Positions 8,881 to 13,281 of a DNA stretch of 23,549 nucleotides are shown piece after piece. Under the pieces are notes generated by a model. That model was given only the letters and a program-made list of their open reading frames with translations. It was not told the origin of the DNA and did not search any database. Each line of letters opens with the position of its first letter. Position 1 is the first letter of the stretch. This stretch comes from a virus: positions 1-23,549 of IMG/VR virus record IMGVR_UViG_3300044647_000609; one strand, given 5' to 3'. The position numbers were made by a program, and so were the translations under genes.

Positions 8881-9203
8881 AGTTGAGTAATTATTCTTTG
8901 AAAATCCTCAACGCTCCTGATTACCTCGTATCGATACCCTGCCTCTTGAACCACTCCCTGCCACCACTTCTGCGAGAGCGACTGCTTGCCCTTATTGGCT
9001 TTGAACTCAAGGAAGATTGCCCCGTTGTCGGATAGGTAGGTCATGTCTGCAACCCCAGCGGTCAGGCCGATGCCCTTGAGAAAATGACCGTTGGTTCGGC
9101 TTCGAGGGTTGTTGAGGTTCAGGAACAACCGCCCTTCTTCGTGGGGCTTCAAGAGTTTGAACAACTTGACGCAGGCGGCTTGCAGGGTGTATTCGGGGGT
9201 CAT
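8877..9203 (-). CDS. VRR-NUC domain nuclease
   Basis: Starting at the ATG at 9203 gives 108 residues, the normal size for stand-alone phage VRR-NUC proteins. The catalytic pattern is clear: D53 in AGVADMTYL, E66-x-K68 in GAIFLEFKANKGKQS, a conserved Q in LSQKWWQ and a closing YEVIRSVEDF. These are PD-(D/E)XK nucleases thought to work in phage DNA processing or recombination. The start overlaps the helicase stop as ATGA, and the stop overlaps the next nuclease start the same way. The longer frame to 9242 shadows the helicase. Confidence 0.88.
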   Translation of the reverse strand: MTPEYTLQAACVKLFKLLKPHEEGRLFLNLNNPRSRTNGHFLKGIGLTAGVADMTYLSDNGAIFLEFKANKGKQSLSQKWWQGVVQEAGYRYEVIRSVEDFQRIITQL

Positions 9204-10468
9204 AGCGGATATTCGTTTGCTTTGGTGTATGGCAGTTGGCATTGGACTTGGGCGATTCCAAGGCTACCGTTCCTGTTCTTTCGGAAGATGACCTCCATCA
9301 GGTCCTGCTCTGCGTTCTTGTCGTGTTCGTAGGGTCGATAAACGAAGGCAATTTTATCAGCATCGAACTCCAGTTGCCCTGTTTCCCGAAGGTCGGACAT
9401 AATGGGCCGATGGTCGGCCCTGCCTTCCGTTGCTCTTGAGAGCGAAGAAACCACGACCCCAAAGACCTTTTGGCGTTTGCAGATTGCCTTGAGTTGCTTG
9501 CTGATATTGGTCATCTGCTCAATCTTGGGCTTGGGCTTATCAATCTTCGCAGGTTCTACGAGTTGCAGGTAGTCAAGGTAGAAACCAACGATTCCGAATT
9601 TGGCCTTGAGTTTTGCTATCTCGCCTTCGATTCGGTCAAGGTTTGCTTGGTGCAGGTCAACGATGTAGAGAGGCTTCCCTTTGAGTTGGTCGGCCTTTTG
9701 GGCCAAGGTCAGGTACTGCTCGGTGCTGATTCGCTCGTCGGGCTTGAGGAATGCAGAGCCGTCCATCGTTCCGAGGTTGGAAAGCATCCGCTGGGTCAGT
9801 TGGTCAGCAGACATCTCCATCGTAAAGAACACGACGGGAATCTCGGCCATTGCTTGGTTCATAGCTATTTGCAGAGCAAGTAGGGTCTTACCCATTGCGG
9901 GACGACCACCCACGAGGATGAACTCGGAGGGCTTAAACCCGGTGCAGATGTTGTCGAGCGGTCGGATTAAGGTCGGGTAGATTTGGTCCTTGCGTCTGCC
10001 TTCCCGGACCTCGTTCATGTTGACAAGAAAGTCCTTTGCCAGTTCATGGGCCGATGATTCGGACGCACTTGACTCAACCGCTTGAATGGACTGATAGCGT
10101 TGGAATGCCTTGGGTATGTCCCGGTCATGGGCCAGTTCTTCCATGATTCTCGCTTCCTCACGTTCCTTCCAAAGGTCGTGAAGGTCGGATGCGTAGGTCT
10201 TCCAATTGCTGACAAGCCCTGCTTCGGGGTCAATGCCTTCGAGCAGGACATGGGCTTGACCTTGGTCTGCGAGGTGTTTGTAAACGGTAACGACATCCAC
10301 CTCTCGCTCTGCTTTGTGGAGCGACTCGATGGCCCGGTAGAGCAGTACGTTGTTGCCTGTGAACAGGCGTTCCGGGATTTGGGTCAGGAGGATAGTTCGG
10401 TTTACGAACTTGTCCATTAGGCATCCGAGCAGTTTTCGCTCAGCGGACAATTGGTAGGGGTTCATCAT
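9200..10468 (-). CDS. dnaB: DnaB-family replicative helicase
   Basis: The 422-residue product has an N-terminal helical domain (residues 1-110, beginning SAERKLLGCLMDK) and a RecA-like motor. Motifs seen are GRPAMGKT (188-195, Walker A), FFTMEMSADQL (H1a), IVGFYLDYLQLV (293-304, H2), VVVSSLSRATEGR (338-350, H3), LRETGQLEFDADKI (360-373) and VIFRKNRNG (393-401, H4). It would form a ring and unwind the phage fork. No primase domain is fused. The start at a double ATG lies 29 bases inside the end of the initiator-like gene, and the VRR-NUC gene follows by ATGA overlap, so initiator, helicase and nucleases are one unit. Confidence 0.95.
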   Translation of the reverse strand: MMNPYQLSAERKLLGCLMDKFVNRTILLTQIPERLFTGNNVLLYRAIESLHKAEREVDVVTVYKHLADQGQAHVLLEGIDPEAGLVSNWKTYASDLHDLWKEREEARIMEELAHDRDIPKAFQRYQSIQAVESSASESSAHELAKDFLVNMNEVREGRRKDQIYPTLIRPLDNICTGFKPSEFILVGGRPAMGKTLLALQIAMNQAMAEIPVVFFTMEMSADQLTQRMLSNLGTMDGSAFLKPDERISTEQYLTLAQKADQLKGKPLYIVDLHQANLDRIEGEIAKLKAKFGIVGFYLDYLQLVEPAKIDKPKPKIEQMTNISKQLKAICKRQKVFGVVVSSLSRATEGRADHRPIMSDLRETGQLEFDADKIAFVYRPYEHDKNAEQDLMEVIFRKNRNGSLGIAQVQCQLPYTKANEYPL

Positions 10469-11180
10469 CTTGGGTTAGGTTTGAGTAGGCGAAGTTAGGT
10501 GTACGTTGGATGGCTTGGTCCTCCCATCGTTTGCCGTTGAGGTAGGTGGAAGGGTGAGGAACAAACTGCACGGGTGTTTGAGAGTAGAGCCTTGCGATGT
10601 TGTTCATGGCTTTCTGTTGGTCTGCATTGGACAACTTTGCAAAGGATTTTGACGCTGCCTGCTTCCCGGTCTTCCGTGGATAGATAGCCCAAAATTGGTC
10701 AAAGATTGCACAAGTGTTCTTAATCTCTTCTTTGTTTGTTATCTCTTCTATTCTTATCTTATCTAATCTTATCTTATCTGCTTCCATTTGCTTAGCACTT
10801 GCTTGGTTTTGCTTAGCACTTGCTTCAGTTTGCTTAGCACTTGCTTCGGTTTGCTTAGCACTTGCTTGGCTCTTTATTTCACCTCCTTTACGACCTGCCT
10901 CCCTCCTTCTTTCGCTTAACCTGTTAAGGCCCTCCATCTGCAAATCAAGGAAGTCGATGCGGATTTCATCGCCTTCGGTCTTAATTATTTCGGACTCAAT
11001 CAGTTTTTGAAGGAGGTCTTTGCCTATCTCAAGGCTTGCTTGATGGGCCGTAAACTGCCCGTGCTTGACCCAGTAGAGTTGACAAATGTGGATGAAGGCC
11101 CCTTGGACTTCAAAGGATTTGCGACTGATTCGGCCTGCGAGCCAATCGCTTGGGGAGTGTTTGTACCAACTATTTTCCAT
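10440..11180 (-). CDS. Replication initiator-like protein with embedded repeats
   Basis: The N-terminal 90 residues (SWYKHSPSDWLAGRI, then VQGAFIHICQLYW and a wing-like IIKTEGDEIRIDF) resemble the winged helix start of phage replication proteins of the DUF1376/Lin1244 type. Residues 104-133 contain four near-identical heptads of the form ASAKQTE. After a charged segment (DKIRLDKIRIEE) the C-terminus has FDQFWAIYPRKTGKQAASKSF and HPSTYLNGKRWED, a block found at the end of many O- or DnaD-like phage proteins. It likely binds the origin and recruits the helicase encoded next to it. The gene starts three bases after a terminator-like T-tract, and the heptad-coding DNA may itself be the origin. 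Confidence 0.8.
   Translation of the reverse strand: MENSWYKHSPSDWLAGRISRKSFEVQGAFIHICQLYWVKHGQFTAHQASLEIGKDLLQKLIESEIIKTEGDEIRIDFLDLQMEGLNRLSERRREAGRKGGEIKSQASAKQTEASAKQTEASAKQNQASAKQMEADKIRLDKIRIEEITNKEEIKNTCAIFDQFWAIYPRKTGKQAASKSFAKLSNADQQKAMNNIARLYSQTPVQFVPHPSTYLNGKRWEDQAIQRTPNFAYSNLTQDDEPLPIVR
10720..10780. other. AT-rich pyrimidine-biased tract, candidate unwinding element
   Basis: On the plus strand this stretch is nearly all T, C and A with very few G, and the word TTATCT occurs five times. It adjoins the four 18-base repeats at 10787-10867. The lambda origin has the same pairing of iterons with an AT-rich, strand-asymmetric element within the initiator gene. Here the tract encodes the charged DKIRLDKIRIEEITNKEE part of the protein. 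It is proposed as the duplex-unwinding element; this is inference from layout. Confidence 0.5.
10787..10867. repeat. Four 18-bp direct repeats (iterons), candidate origin
   Basis: The word TTTGCTTAGCACTTGCTT occurs exactly at 10787, 10808, 10829 and 10850, a strict 21-base period with a variable triplet between copies (GGT, CAG, CGG). Each copy contains GCT-T-AGC symmetry. The repeats lie inside the initiator gene and encode the heptads. All synonymous positions are the same in every copy while the spacer triplets change residues, so the DNA sequence rather than the protein seems constrained, or the array is young. Two turns of helix per unit would align bound initiators on one face. Confidence 0.8.
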
Positions 11181-11183
11181 GGT

Positions 11184-11221
11184 AAAAAAAAAGCCCCCAA
11201 CTGATTCCGGCAGTTGAGGGC
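11184..11221 (-). terminator. Rho-independent terminator or attenuator before the initiator gene
   Basis: In the leftward transcript GCCCTCAACTG and CAGTTGGGGGC (11193-11221) can pair over 11 positions with one mismatch that could be a G-U pair, around a seven-base loop, followed at once by nine T residues (11184-11192). It is a strong intrinsic terminator for transcripts from the recombination operon. The T-tract ends three bases before the ATG of the initiator gene, leaving no room for a separate promoter after it, so a role as attenuator is plausible. Confidence 0.8.
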
Positions 11222-11318: not shown

Positions 11319-11552
11319 CTAAAAAGGCAGGTCCGAGCCTTGTTTTTGTGAATTTTCTTGCTCTTGCATAGGCTCCATTTTGCCTGACAGGAACTTCTTG
11401 CCGTTGGCTGCTTCTTTGAGCCAGCAGGAAAGTTTCATCTTGGTTCCGTCAGGAAGGACCGCATCGCCTCGGTAATCCGGGCGTTTCGGGTTGTCGCCTT
11501 TGTCGTTGGCGAATAAAGTGAAGGTGTTGGGTTGGGGAGTGTAACTGCTCAT
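11319..11552 (-). CDS. Small SSB-like single-strand DNA-binding protein
   Basis: The 77-residue protein opens with FTLFANDKGDNPKRPDYRG, followed by strand-forming segments AVLPDGTKMKLSCWLKEA and GKKFLSGKMEP, then a polar Q/E/S-rich tail ending in SDLPF. The first part is a small all-beta domain I have seen in phage and plasmid proteins of unknown role, sometimes near replication genes. The last residues mimic the acidic-proline-phenylalanine tip of bacterial SSB, which binds partner proteins. Placed at the end of the annealing-protein operon and before the initiator and helicase, it probably coats single strands at forks or recombination ends. The start overlaps the winged helix gene as ATGA. 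Confidence 0.6.
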   Translation of the reverse strand: MSSYTPQPNTFTLFANDKGDNPKRPDYRGDAVLPDGTKMKLSCWLKEAANGKKFLSGKMEPMQEQENSQKQGSDLPF

Positions 11553-11752
11553 GATTGTGGGTTTTGGGTTTTGGTTTTAATTGAGTAAGTGCAAAGGTTT
11601 TTCTCTACGACCTCTCCTGAGGCCCGTAAATCCCTTATGATTCGGTAGGTGGCCCCTTTGCTTGTCCCAAGAATATCTTGCAACTGAGAGGCTCTGAGAG
11701 GCTTCTGCGATAATAGACGCAAAGCCTTGATGGTGTTGATTACTTGCTTCAT
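11549..11752 (-). CDS. Winged helix-turn-helix DNA-binding protein
   Basis: This 67-residue protein is almost entirely one winged helix domain: a first helix VINTIKALRLLSQ, a helix-turn-helix RASQLQDILGTSKGATYRII with the recognition helix at the end, and a short wing GEVVEKNLCTYSI. Such domains bind specific DNA and act as repressors or activators. It lies inside the ATGA-linked recombination operon and could regulate that operon or the nearby initiator leader. A role in a nucleoprotein complex at the origin is also possible. The family resembles IclR- or MarR-type folds only at the fold level. Confidence 0.65.
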   Translation of the reverse strand: MKQVINTIKALRLLSQKPLRASQLQDILGTSKGATYRIIRDLRASGEVVEKNLCTYSIKTKTQNPQS

Positions 11753-12198
11753 CGGAACGATACGGCTATGGACGCTTTGGTGGCCTTGGCGGTGCAGACT
11801 GGAACCTGCTCGCCCGTGGACTCGTCAAAGATAGCGGTCTTCCCGGCTTGCCGAAAGGCAATCTTCAGCAGTTCCTCCCTCGCTTTGAGTTGTGCTTTGA
11901 GGTCGGCATACACTTCGTCTTCCTCGTAGTTCGGGGTCAGGCTCCCTTCCTTCAGGGTAATCTCTGCTCCGAAGGCGGAGAAGGTCTTGCCGTGCTTGCC
12001 GGCTTCGTCGGCTACGGTCTGCTCGGTGGCCTTGATGGTTGCTTCAAGAGCCTTGACGATGGCCTTGAGTTTGATATGGGCCTCCACCGGATTGACCTCA
12101 CCATCATTGATTCGGTCGGTCAGTTGCTGGGCGATTTGGGCGATTTCTGCCTTGCAGATATCAGCCTTTGGTATTGTGATGAGAGTTGGGTGAATCAT
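11749..12198 (-). CDS. Coiled-coil phage protein in the recombination operon
   Basis: The 149-residue protein is mainly helical. It has a heptad-like helix from about 17 to 70 (IAQIAQQLTDRI, LKAIVKALEATIKATEQTV), a conserved-looking turn with HGKTFSAFGAEITLKEG, a short acidic stretch NYEEDEVYADLK, and a second helix with LKAREELLKIAF. I recall proteins of this shape from many phage recombination clusters, lying near annealing proteins or exonucleases, but no biochemical role is known to me. Both ends overlap their neighbours by ATGA, so its amounts are probably tied to those of the Rad52-like protein and the SSB-like protein. Confidence 0.6.
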   Translation of the reverse strand: MIHPTLITIPKADICKAEIAQIAQQLTDRINDGEVNPVEAHIKLKAIVKALEATIKATEQTVADEAGKHGKTFSAFGAEITLKEGSLTPNYEEDEVYADLKAQLKAREELLKIAFRQAGKTAIFDESTGEQVPVCTAKATKASIAVSFR

Positions 12199-12416
12199 GG
12201 TCTGGATTTAAAAGCGTCAAAGATTTGGTTGCAATACTGCCCGTAATGGATTCCGACTGCGTTAGAGAGGTCGATGCACTCCCCTAAGGTCAGTTGGATT
12301 GGAAGGGTTTTCTCGGTCAAGGCTTTGACCAAGTCAAGGCCAATGGTCGGAAATTTTTCTTTGAACTCAAGGAGTTTCCGAAACTCTTCAGCGTTCATTT
12401 GTTCGAGTAGGTTCAT
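12195..12416 (-). CDS. Small protein, tandem paralogue B
   Basis: Starting at the ATG at 12416 gives 73 residues that align without gaps to the product of the gene just upstream; by eye 42 of 73 positions are identical. Shared blocks are MNLLE, EF.KLLE.KEK.P near the start, and PIQLTLG in the middle, with FKS at the end. The protein is helical and soluble, with no known domain that I recognise. Start and stop both make ATGA overlaps, so it is translated in series with its paralogue. The longer frame to 12497 reads through the paralogue and is rejected. Confidence 0.7.
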   Translation of the reverse strand: MNLLEQMNAEEFRKLLEFKEKFPTIGLDLVKALTEKTLPIQLTLGECIDLSNAVGIHYGQYCNQIFDAFKSRP

Positions 12417-12634
12417 GGTTTGGATTTGAAAGTTTGGAAGATGTCGTGGATAGAGCCTCCCCAAGGGGCATCGAGTGCCGTTGAAAGCATGACGCAATCT
12501 CCCAAGGTCAGTTGAATTGGAAAGGATTTAACGGTTAATTCTTGGATTAAATCCTCGCCAAGGGCCGGGTACTTCTCTTTGTACTCAAGGAGTTTCTTAA
12601 ACTCGTCTGCATTCATTTTTTCAAGTAGGTTCAT
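12413..12634 (-). CDS. Small protein, tandem paralogue A
   Basis: A 73-residue protein of the same length as the next gene product and clearly homologous to it. The conserved part is the N-terminal helix (MNLLEKMNADEFKKLLEYKE) and the core PIQLTLGDCVMLS; the segment LDAPWGGSIHD before the last helix differs most between the copies. That fits duplication followed by change of one surface. It may form homo- or heterodimers with paralogue B. The gene begins in an ATGA overlap with the Rad52-like gene, which suggests a role in annealing or strand handling, but the sequence itself does not show one. Confidence 0.7.
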   Translation of the reverse strand: MNLLEKMNADEFKKLLEYKEKYPALGEDLIQELTVKSFPIQLTLGDCVMLSTALDAPWGGSIHDIFQTFKSKP

Positions 12635-13281
12635 GGTCTTGCAAGTTGGTTTTGGATGAATTGGATGCCTTTCTCGAAGCGTGCAGGGGTCATGTGGTCG
12701 ATGTCCTTCATGAACTTCGCCTGCTGCTCGGCTGGGAGTTTCTTCACGAGTGCAAGGAAATCAGCCTTTAGCGTTGCGGTGGTCAACTCGTCGTAGGAAG
12801 GGACCAGTCCGAGTTTGTCGTTGAGGTCCAGCAAATTGGCGTTGGCAGGCTTGGGGGCTGCTCCGTGCTTGCCCTTGTACACATCAATCCCAATCCCAAT
12901 CCAAGAAGCGATTTTGGTGATGGCATCGGTGGTCGCTCCCTTCGCTGCATCACCGGGGTCGTCGTTCATAGACGAAGCGATGCACTCGTAGTAGATTGCG
13001 TATTCGGGAACCGTGAAGATGGTCTTTAAGACTGCCGTGTATTCGGTTCTTTCTTTGCCGAATTTTGTTGTCCTTGTGGCTGATGCAATGGGGCTTAACA
13101 GGTCGGTCTTAACTGACCAAGCACCAACACCAAAGACTTGGTTTAGTCGCTCGGTTACGAAGATTCCCTTGATTGTTGAGAGGTTGTCTTTGGTTGGATG
13201 TGGTGCAATGGCTTCGGGTGGTAGAGGCTCGGTAATCTTGGCGAGTTGCTCAGGGGTTAACTTGTTGGGCACTATTGTCAT
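12631..13281 (-). CDS. Rad52-family single-strand annealing protein
   Basis: The 216-residue product carries the usual marks of phage Rad52/Rad22-type annealing proteins: LSTIKGIFVTERLNQVFGVG (residues 34-53), strands ending in AIYYECIASS, and the helix DAAKGATTDAITKIASWIGI (111-130) followed by DVYKGKHG. These proteins form rings on single strands and pair complementary ends. The C-terminal 75 residues are a helical tail with LPAEQQAKFMKDID, less conserved in this group. It is the first gene of a six-gene chain of ATGA overlaps that ends with the SSB-like gene, making a compact recombination module. The leader repeats that of the small membrane gene upstream. Confidence 0.8.
   Translation of the reverse strand: MTIVPNKLTPEQLAKITEPLPPEAIAPHPTKDNLSTIKGIFVTERLNQVFGVGAWSVKTDLLSPIASATRTTKFGKERTEYTAVLKTIFTVPEYAIYYECIASSMNDDPGDAAKGATTDAITKIASWIGIGIDVYKGKHGAAPKPANANLLDLNDKLGLVPSYDELTTATLKADFLALVKKLPAEQQAKFMKDIDHMTPARFEKGIQFIQNQLARP

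Follow-up and report, generated by a model that had tools for sequence, protein, structure and literature searches.

Small phage proteins that resemble bacterial SSB in sequence in the C-terminal tail only

Phage single-strand DNA-binding proteins (SSBs) with a bacterial-like C-terminal tip are a known kind of protein. The HK620 SSB, a member of the DUF669 family, is encoded beside an annealing protein and recruits it through such a tip; it ends NDYPPF, and loss of these six residues, according to the cited part of PMC5928155, prevents the recruitment of Sak4 to coated ssDNA and blocks annealing. The SSB tail is modular, since its fusion to PriB results in stronger ssDNA binding and stimulation of PriA (excerpt of PMC8509808), and the final residues of the host SSB have been credited with setting the host range of single-strand annealing proteins (SSAPs; excerpt of PMC10711431).

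Here, a 77-residue protein (designated mini-SSB) was analysed, which is encoded on a viral DNA of 23,549 nucleotides (IMG/VR record IMGVR_UViG_3300044647_000609, positions 1 to 23,549; this whole stretch is referred to as the window). A first-pass annotation, made from the sequence alone, had proposed that it may be an unusually small SSB that recruits host SSB partners.

The mini-SSB gene and its operon

The features of the window considered in this study are as follows:

9200..10468, minus strand: DnaB-like helicase (PF03796, E 2.3e-60)
10440..11180, minus strand: replication initiator-type protein (phrog_9327, primosomal protein, E 4.7e-23; phrog_270, replication initiation protein, E 1.9e-17)
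11193..11221, minus strand: terminator-like GC-rich hairpin with T9, in the gap between the mini-SSB and initiator genes, located a few bases ahead of the start codon (ATG) of the latter
11319..11552, minus strand: mini-SSB gene, an ORF of 77 aa with an ATG start and the C-terminus SDLPF
11322..11363, minus strand: predicted flexible acidic tail, residues 64-77, with the SSB-Ct-like tip SDLPF (low pLDDT, tip conservation)
11364..11552, minus strand: predicted beta core, residues 1-63 (AlphaFold2 model and alignment)
11549..11752, minus strand: small winged-helix/HTH-type protein (HTH matches are weak: none reaches its Pfam cut-off, the best having E 5.4e-5)
11749..12198, minus strand: 149-aa protein of the same operon, with no convincing family in Pfam, PHROGs or NCBIfam
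12195-12634, minus strand: a pair of neighbouring small genes (73 and 100 aa) that are related to each other, between the SSAP and 149-aa genes
12631..13281, minus strand: Rad52-like SSAP (PF04098, 20.8 bits with a cut-off of 20.3)

The ORF at 11319..11552 was confirmed to encode a 77-residue protein ending SDLPF, as originally read, and the [DE]-x-P-[FWY] ending is unique to it among the 111 ATG ORFs of at least 40 aa in the window. The order of the genes, i.e. SSAP, two small genes, 149-aa gene, HTH-type gene, mini-SSB and, after a gap of 138 bases, initiator and DnaB, bears out the earlier statement that the gene closes a recombination operon and precedes the initiator and helicase. Four-base overlaps join the 149-aa gene to the HTH-type gene and the latter to the start of the mini-SSB gene. 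The Rad52-like protein displayed further weak PHROG matches (DNA repair/exonuclease), and at E 1e-5 the phage collection contained nothing that matched it. No PF00436 SSB was found in the window, which is a genome fragment.

A widespread family with a conserved tip

The window mini-SSB matches phrog_18154 (E 4.5e-6, residues 9-67) and phrog_7364 (E 0.0053, residues 8-67), both of which carry the name 'single strand DNA binding protein' and were matched at E<=0.1 by 18 of the 18 members of an alignment chosen for diversity (A1). The family is therefore already named, and the SSB proposal agrees with existing annotation because the PHROG families matched are already called SSB. No Pfam family was matched at E<=1 and no NCBIfam family at E<=5. 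Comparison by tblastn with 50,697 phage records retrieved 17 records at E<=1 when the window protein was the query; a group-C query retrieved 140 at E<=0.001. Many of these records are annotated as SSB. Scans of viral contigs yielded 220, 346 and 32 relatives, of which the best 80, the best 80 and all 32 were retained as groups A, B and C, respectively; the scan patterns excluded the last four residues, and relatives were confirmed and ranked by whole-protein tblastn. A full coding sequence was obtained from 191 of these 192 loci, representing 103 distinct proteins. A search with the protein of Acinetobacter phage DMU1 as query returned no relatives.

The mini-SSB family is thus widespread and not unusual. 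Of the idea of an unusually small SSB, a very small SSB-type protein stands; 'unusual' does not, given a widespread family that is labelled SSB in PHROGs and many phage records. Named-phage relatives span 72-159 aa, and the tail of the window protein comprises 14 residues. One relative was located in a Herminiimonas contig (prophage). Plasmid-borne relatives with an extra N-terminal stretch were observed in Caballeronia (L239) and Paraburkholderia (L245), with the tips EDEDIPF and EDDEIPF, respectively. In Vibrio phage VP2 (L229) and K300 (L237), two tandem cores are followed by one tail, as if two binding units had been fused.

A search of the homologues for the tip, named beforehand as a test that could refute the SSB reading, did not refute it and revealed that [DE]xP[FWY] is retained at the end of 98 of the 103 distinct proteins, with the stricter [DE]xPF ending 96 (group A, best 80 of 220 loci; group B, best 80 of 346; group C). 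The linker ahead of the tip is hypervariable, with positions -7 to -15 being mixed, and the tip codons vary synonymously (GAT/GAC for D, CCT/CCG/CCA/CCC for P and TTT/TTC for F), showing that the D-x-P-F-like ending that had been noticed in the window protein is more than chance. At the level of distinct DNA sequences, F occupies position -1 in 146 of 151 and P position -2 in 147 of 151. The 47 distinct group-A tips (best 80 of 220 loci) consist of 23 DLPF, 22 DMPF, one DFPF and one DLPY (L045), DVPF was found in 31 of 31 group-B tips (best 80 of 346 loci), and the 25 distinct group-C tips include eight DIPF and six EIPF, with DIPW at the end of L178. Among named-phage homologues, PF ends 19 of 19 and [DE]xPF 17 of 19; an acidic residue at -4 is absent from K300 (GIPF), Mae-JY35 (TIPF) and the Herminiimonas prophage (DDKPPF). 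Five of the 103 proteins do not end in [DE]xP[FWY]: L200 is devoid of any tip, L180/L181 end SIPF, L184 has one residue beyond DIPF, L171 has residues beyond DDDVPW and L201 (2971-3162) has an in-frame stop at the start of the linker, with an in-frame SDLPF after this stop. When 3932 mechanically called ORFs of at least 50 aa were inspected in the loci collected at that stage, 129 were found to end [DE]xPF, of which 27 fell outside the tail list: eight more family members, 18 bacterial SSBs and the SSB of Flavobacterium phage Fpv5.

The core is better conserved than the tail in the family alignment. Residues N16, K23, P25, G29 and W44 are invariant in a 48-sequence alignment (A2); the Trp is missing in L186, a partial protein outside this alignment. 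The net charge of the core is +3 for the window protein and +1.8 on average across 102 proteins (range -1 to +4).

The genomic setting of the relatives was examined next to that of the window. In group A (best 80 of 220 loci, many of them partial), the Rad52-like SSAP is present in 57 of 80 loci and the 149-aa protein in 66 of 80. Two matches to the pair of small genes occur in L001 too, and a single match in L007 and several other listed loci. Of 56 distinct regions downstream of the gene in group A, 50 were predicted to contain a hairpin of less than -8 kcal/mol directly before a T run, and among the 22 group-A regions listed the stems vary in sequence yet still pair; the element may represent an attenuator or a terminator that separates the recombination from the replication genes. 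Five other viral-contig loci that were scanned encode Erf plus exonuclease (L124 and L154), a Sak-like protein plus exonuclease (L173 and L182) or a DNA polymerase (L190).

Fourteen of 19 named phages have an annealing (Erf, Sak) or DNA polymerase gene nearby: Erf or Sak adjoins in five (MW202481, C72C1, MW202484, Mae-JY35 and C75C1), and an annotated DNA polymerase is next to or near the mini-SSB gene in nine (DMU1, BUCT555, VP2, VpV262, PSA28, K21lambda1, ZP6, Bm1 and K300). No SSAP or polymerase is annotated in the stretch examined for the remaining five (MW202825, pB23, Kokobel2, phiEcoM-GJ1 and Myduc); MW202825 has an exonuclease nearby, and the neighbours in pB23 and Kokobel2 are unnamed. 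PF00436 was detected in none of 20 phage records (19 with a mini-SSB gene; PSA28 is a partial genome), with the control being positive in 10 of 14.

Tail and core compared with bacterial SSB

A profile of the family without its tail scored <=0.2 bits on the OB domains of 18 bacterial SSBs (best of 3600 shuffles, 8.9), and alignment of the family core with the OB domain by hhalign gave a score of 7.1, equalled by 196 of 200 column-shuffled controls. Conversely, the tail scored 6.6-20.4 bits on these phrog_18154-linked bacterial SSBs in one comparison and 7.6-23.6 bits in a second, in which the tail profile exceeded all 3600 shuffled tails (best 9.6) in 15 of 18 SSBs. The profile that retrieved 17 of these 18 SSBs itself covers the tail and thereby favours a tail match, so the test was repeated on SSBs picked by their OB domain (matches to PF00436 across 36 genomes of that class; 30 loci, of which 28 were parsed, L269 and L273 being the others). 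In this second set, the tail profile scored above all 5600 shuffles (best 11.2) in 23 of 28 SSBs, the core profile scored <=0.7 bits, and 26 of 28 SSBs end [DE]xPF. Judged by sequence, the mini-SSB family thus resembles bacterial SSB in the tail only, and its core is without relation to the OB domain.

The notion that the core is a shrunken OB domain, with the invariant Trp corresponding to Trp88 of E. coli SSB, was found to be unsupported at the level of sequence, the core bit scores being negligible and the hhalign score no better than those of shuffles.

The shared tail has a consequence for annotation. The phrog_18154 profile matches 242 of 369 genomes of one class because the tail resembles that of the host SSB. 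Twenty loci from these 242 genomes comprised 17 full-length bacterial SSBs, two family members (L207 and L208) and one remaining locus (L210). Matches to phrog_18154 in bacterial genomes can therefore be host SSB tails, an annotation trap and a possible source of wrong annotation. The tail likeness also concerns how the labels of phage records arose: that of VpV262 ORF24 reads 'similar to single strand DNA binding protein C-terminus', naming only a C-terminal similarity, that of VP2 gp29 names similarity to V. cholerae SSB and that of phiEcoM-GJ1 gp15 names similarity to VP2. As only the tail resembles bacterial SSB, the likeness of VP2 gp29 to V. cholerae SSB was taken to be a tail likeness. 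The VpV262 genome paper dates from 2003 (as given in the reference list of PMC3391216). The SSB labels in phage records are not independent of one another and so provide no independent proof of DNA binding; a search of the open-licence literature found no DNA-binding results for any family member.

AlphaFold2 predicted four strands (residues 10-15, 27-32, 38-47 and 53-61), and two models built from different first sequences exhibited the same four strands, a confident core and a flexible tail. Mean pLDDT per ten-residue block was 66 for residues 1-10, 82-90 for residues 11-60, and 55 and 52 for the tail, in agreement with the small beta domain and disordered tail that had been read from the sequence. 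The models have four strands, an OB barrel five, and the structural matches are weak. Foldseek searches against the PDB returned nothing below E 0.28 for either model, and searches by sequence found no convincing solved relative: one gave nothing, and two others gave two unrelated chains each at E 0.5 to 1.2. In a viral structure library, nine matches at E<=0.001 were unnamed or uncharacterized phage proteins, and a protein of Vibrio phage JSF9 that carries an SSB label matched more weakly (E 0.11, TM 0.60).

In a VIA comparison, the best Z scores for the two models were 4.0 and 4.4, which are weak. The top rows for both models include four-stranded sheets of similar size, i.e. Borrelia Pur-alpha (Z 3.9, rmsd 4.8, 60 aligned; and Z 4.4, rmsd 4.3, 53 aligned) and the T5 PC4 homologue (Z 3.8, rmsd 4.1, 54 aligned; and Z 3.7, rmsd 4.3, 53 aligned), both weak matches. 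However, Z for the PUR-alpha/PC4 sheets is only 2.7-4.4, unrelated rows such as DDB1 reach equal Z, and the mini-SSB models are without a helix. The predicted likeness is thus a lead only, and may reflect a common arrangement of four strands. The 50 rows that VIA listed for each model include no OB-fold SSB, although an OB-fold relative may still exist.

A further candidate relative is DUF736 (PF05284), a family of plasmid/ICE proteins. Aligned with the core by hhalign, it gave E 0.0033 (probability 9.6%, 44 columns), a score reached by none of 200 column shuffles; 16 of 48 family members match the Pfam model at E<=1 (best E 0.0016), the window protein not being among them, and one family member (G103) scored 20.6 bits, below the cut-off of 22.1. 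DUF736 may thus be distantly related to the core. None of four full-length typical members has an SSB-like tip (two others are incomplete), whereas the Caballeronia plasmid protein (L239), annotated as DUF736, carries the tip and has a core that belongs to the mini-SSB family.

The tip itself seems to follow the host group. FDDDIPF ends eight of 14 relatives with gamma- or beta-proteobacterial hosts, with MDFDDDIPF in three of 14. When 28 SSBs from that host class were chosen irrespective of their tails, 13 were found to end FDDDIPF as well; E. coli SSB ends MDFDDDIPF (excerpt of PMC7145534). Exceptions are two Acinetobacter phages among the 14, which end DDDLPF, as does a fifteenth relative, Acinetobacter phage 53. 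The terminase of the window is closest to those of Flavobacterium psychrophilum phages (50.5% identical over 98%), and the SSBs of F. psychrophilum and Psychroflexus torquis end DLPF, the same as the window tip, in Table 1 of PMC3991886, the host tip for the window resting on these two species; in the same table, SSBs of Psychrobacter, Psychromonas and Photobacterium end DIPF and that of Desulfotalea DVPF. The pattern of these tip sequences would fit tuning to the host group, for the few hosts compared.

A protein labelled SSB in Flavobacterium phage Fpv5 (BOW79_gp31; L204 26642-27025) has a different core and ends HDDLPF. As in the window, a DLPF end (here DDLPF) is found in an SSB-labelled protein of a phage with a related terminase, but on a 127-residue core that is unlike that of mini-SSB; presumably, it resembles DUF3127. 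Given this other core with a DDLPF end, the tip is common to unrelated SSB cores of phages with related terminases.

Proposed function and comparison with known systems

The family, its genomic context, the conservation of the tip, the tail-only similarity to SSB and the absence of a canonical SSB from the named carriers are established here. The most probable reading of these data is that mini-SSB is a minimal phage SSB, in which an ssDNA-coating core is joined to a tip that recruits partners. We infer ssDNA binding, oligomerization and each of the partners: the basic beta sheet of ~60 residues, probably oligomeric, would coat ssDNA at recombination and replication intermediates of the phage, the short flexible tail would display the bacterial-type SSB tip D-L-P-F, and this tip would dock first on the neighbouring annealing protein and also on host SSB-interacting proteins. 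The initial suggestion of recruitment is hence retained in a broader form, as the partners need not be host ones only; the HK620 SSB recruits the phage's own Sak4 (cited part of PMC5928155).

A rather unlikely alternative is that the protein is an SSAP-specific cofactor, which binds ssDNA only at recombination intermediates and loads the annealing protein, with host SSB covering the ssDNA of replication. The gene is linked to SSAPs of three kinds, frequently together with an exonuclease gene, which is consistent with such a role, as is the stimulation of Sak4 by HK620 SSB through its tip (cited part of PMC5928155). However, other members lie beside a DNA polymerase gene, the stretch fetched having no annotated SSAP, and in the window the mini-SSB gene is followed by those for the initiator and helicase.

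It is more doubtful still that mini-SSB is a decoy, whose tip titrates host binders of the SSB C-terminus such as RecO and PriA, with the beta core as a mere carrier; exonuclease I and RecQ also bind the SSB C-terminus. Its tip resembles that of the host class and a protein this small could be made in excess, but the core is better conserved than the tail, carries a net positive charge on average (+1.8) and is duplicated in VP2 and K300, which suits a binding domain better than a carrier. Acidic tails are common in phage proteins, but with the exact [DE]xPF present across unrelated linkers in 96 of 103 distinct relatives, and with all 27 [DE]xPF ORFs outside the tail list being family members or SSBs, it is scarcely credible that the ending arose by chance or from the composition of the tail, in a protein with an unrelated function.

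Within the preferred reading of a minimal phage SSB, it may be proposed, tentatively, that the protein is modular, combining a non-OB, PUR/PC4-like sheet with an SSB tip tuned to the host group (DLPF of the Bacteroidota type, FDDDIPF in many proteobacterial cases), such that only the tip is shared with the host; the database name 'SSB' may then have rested on the tail since VpV262 in 2003. What is new here is that, by its sequence, the core is unrelated to the SSB OB domain and the tail is related; neither this nor the correspondence of tip and host group was found in print among open-licence papers. If the core binds ssDNA, mini-SSB would be, to our knowledge, among the smallest SSBs, and would offer a natural case for testing how small an SSB can become. 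Phages with a tip-bearing SSB of their own beside the SSAP would, moreover, supply pairs ready for testing in recombineering, in this case for Bacteroidota-type phages.

Compared with bacterial SSB (PF00436), the flexible acidic tail with its [DE]xPF tip is common to both, whereas the core differs, mini-SSB having no sequence match to the OB domain (no Pfam hit at E<=1). The HK620 SSB is a 21 kDa protein of another family, and the window protein has no DUF669 match (Pfam, E<=1). The nearest described proteins are the members of phrog_18154 and phrog_7364 (VP2 gp29, phiEcoM-GJ1 gp15 and VpV262 ORF24), which have the same core motif (LFxND...PDYxG...SxWxk...GkfxS), the same kind of tip and, in most records examined, recombination or polymerase neighbours; the window protein differs in being short and ending DLPF, and VP2 and K300 in carrying two cores.
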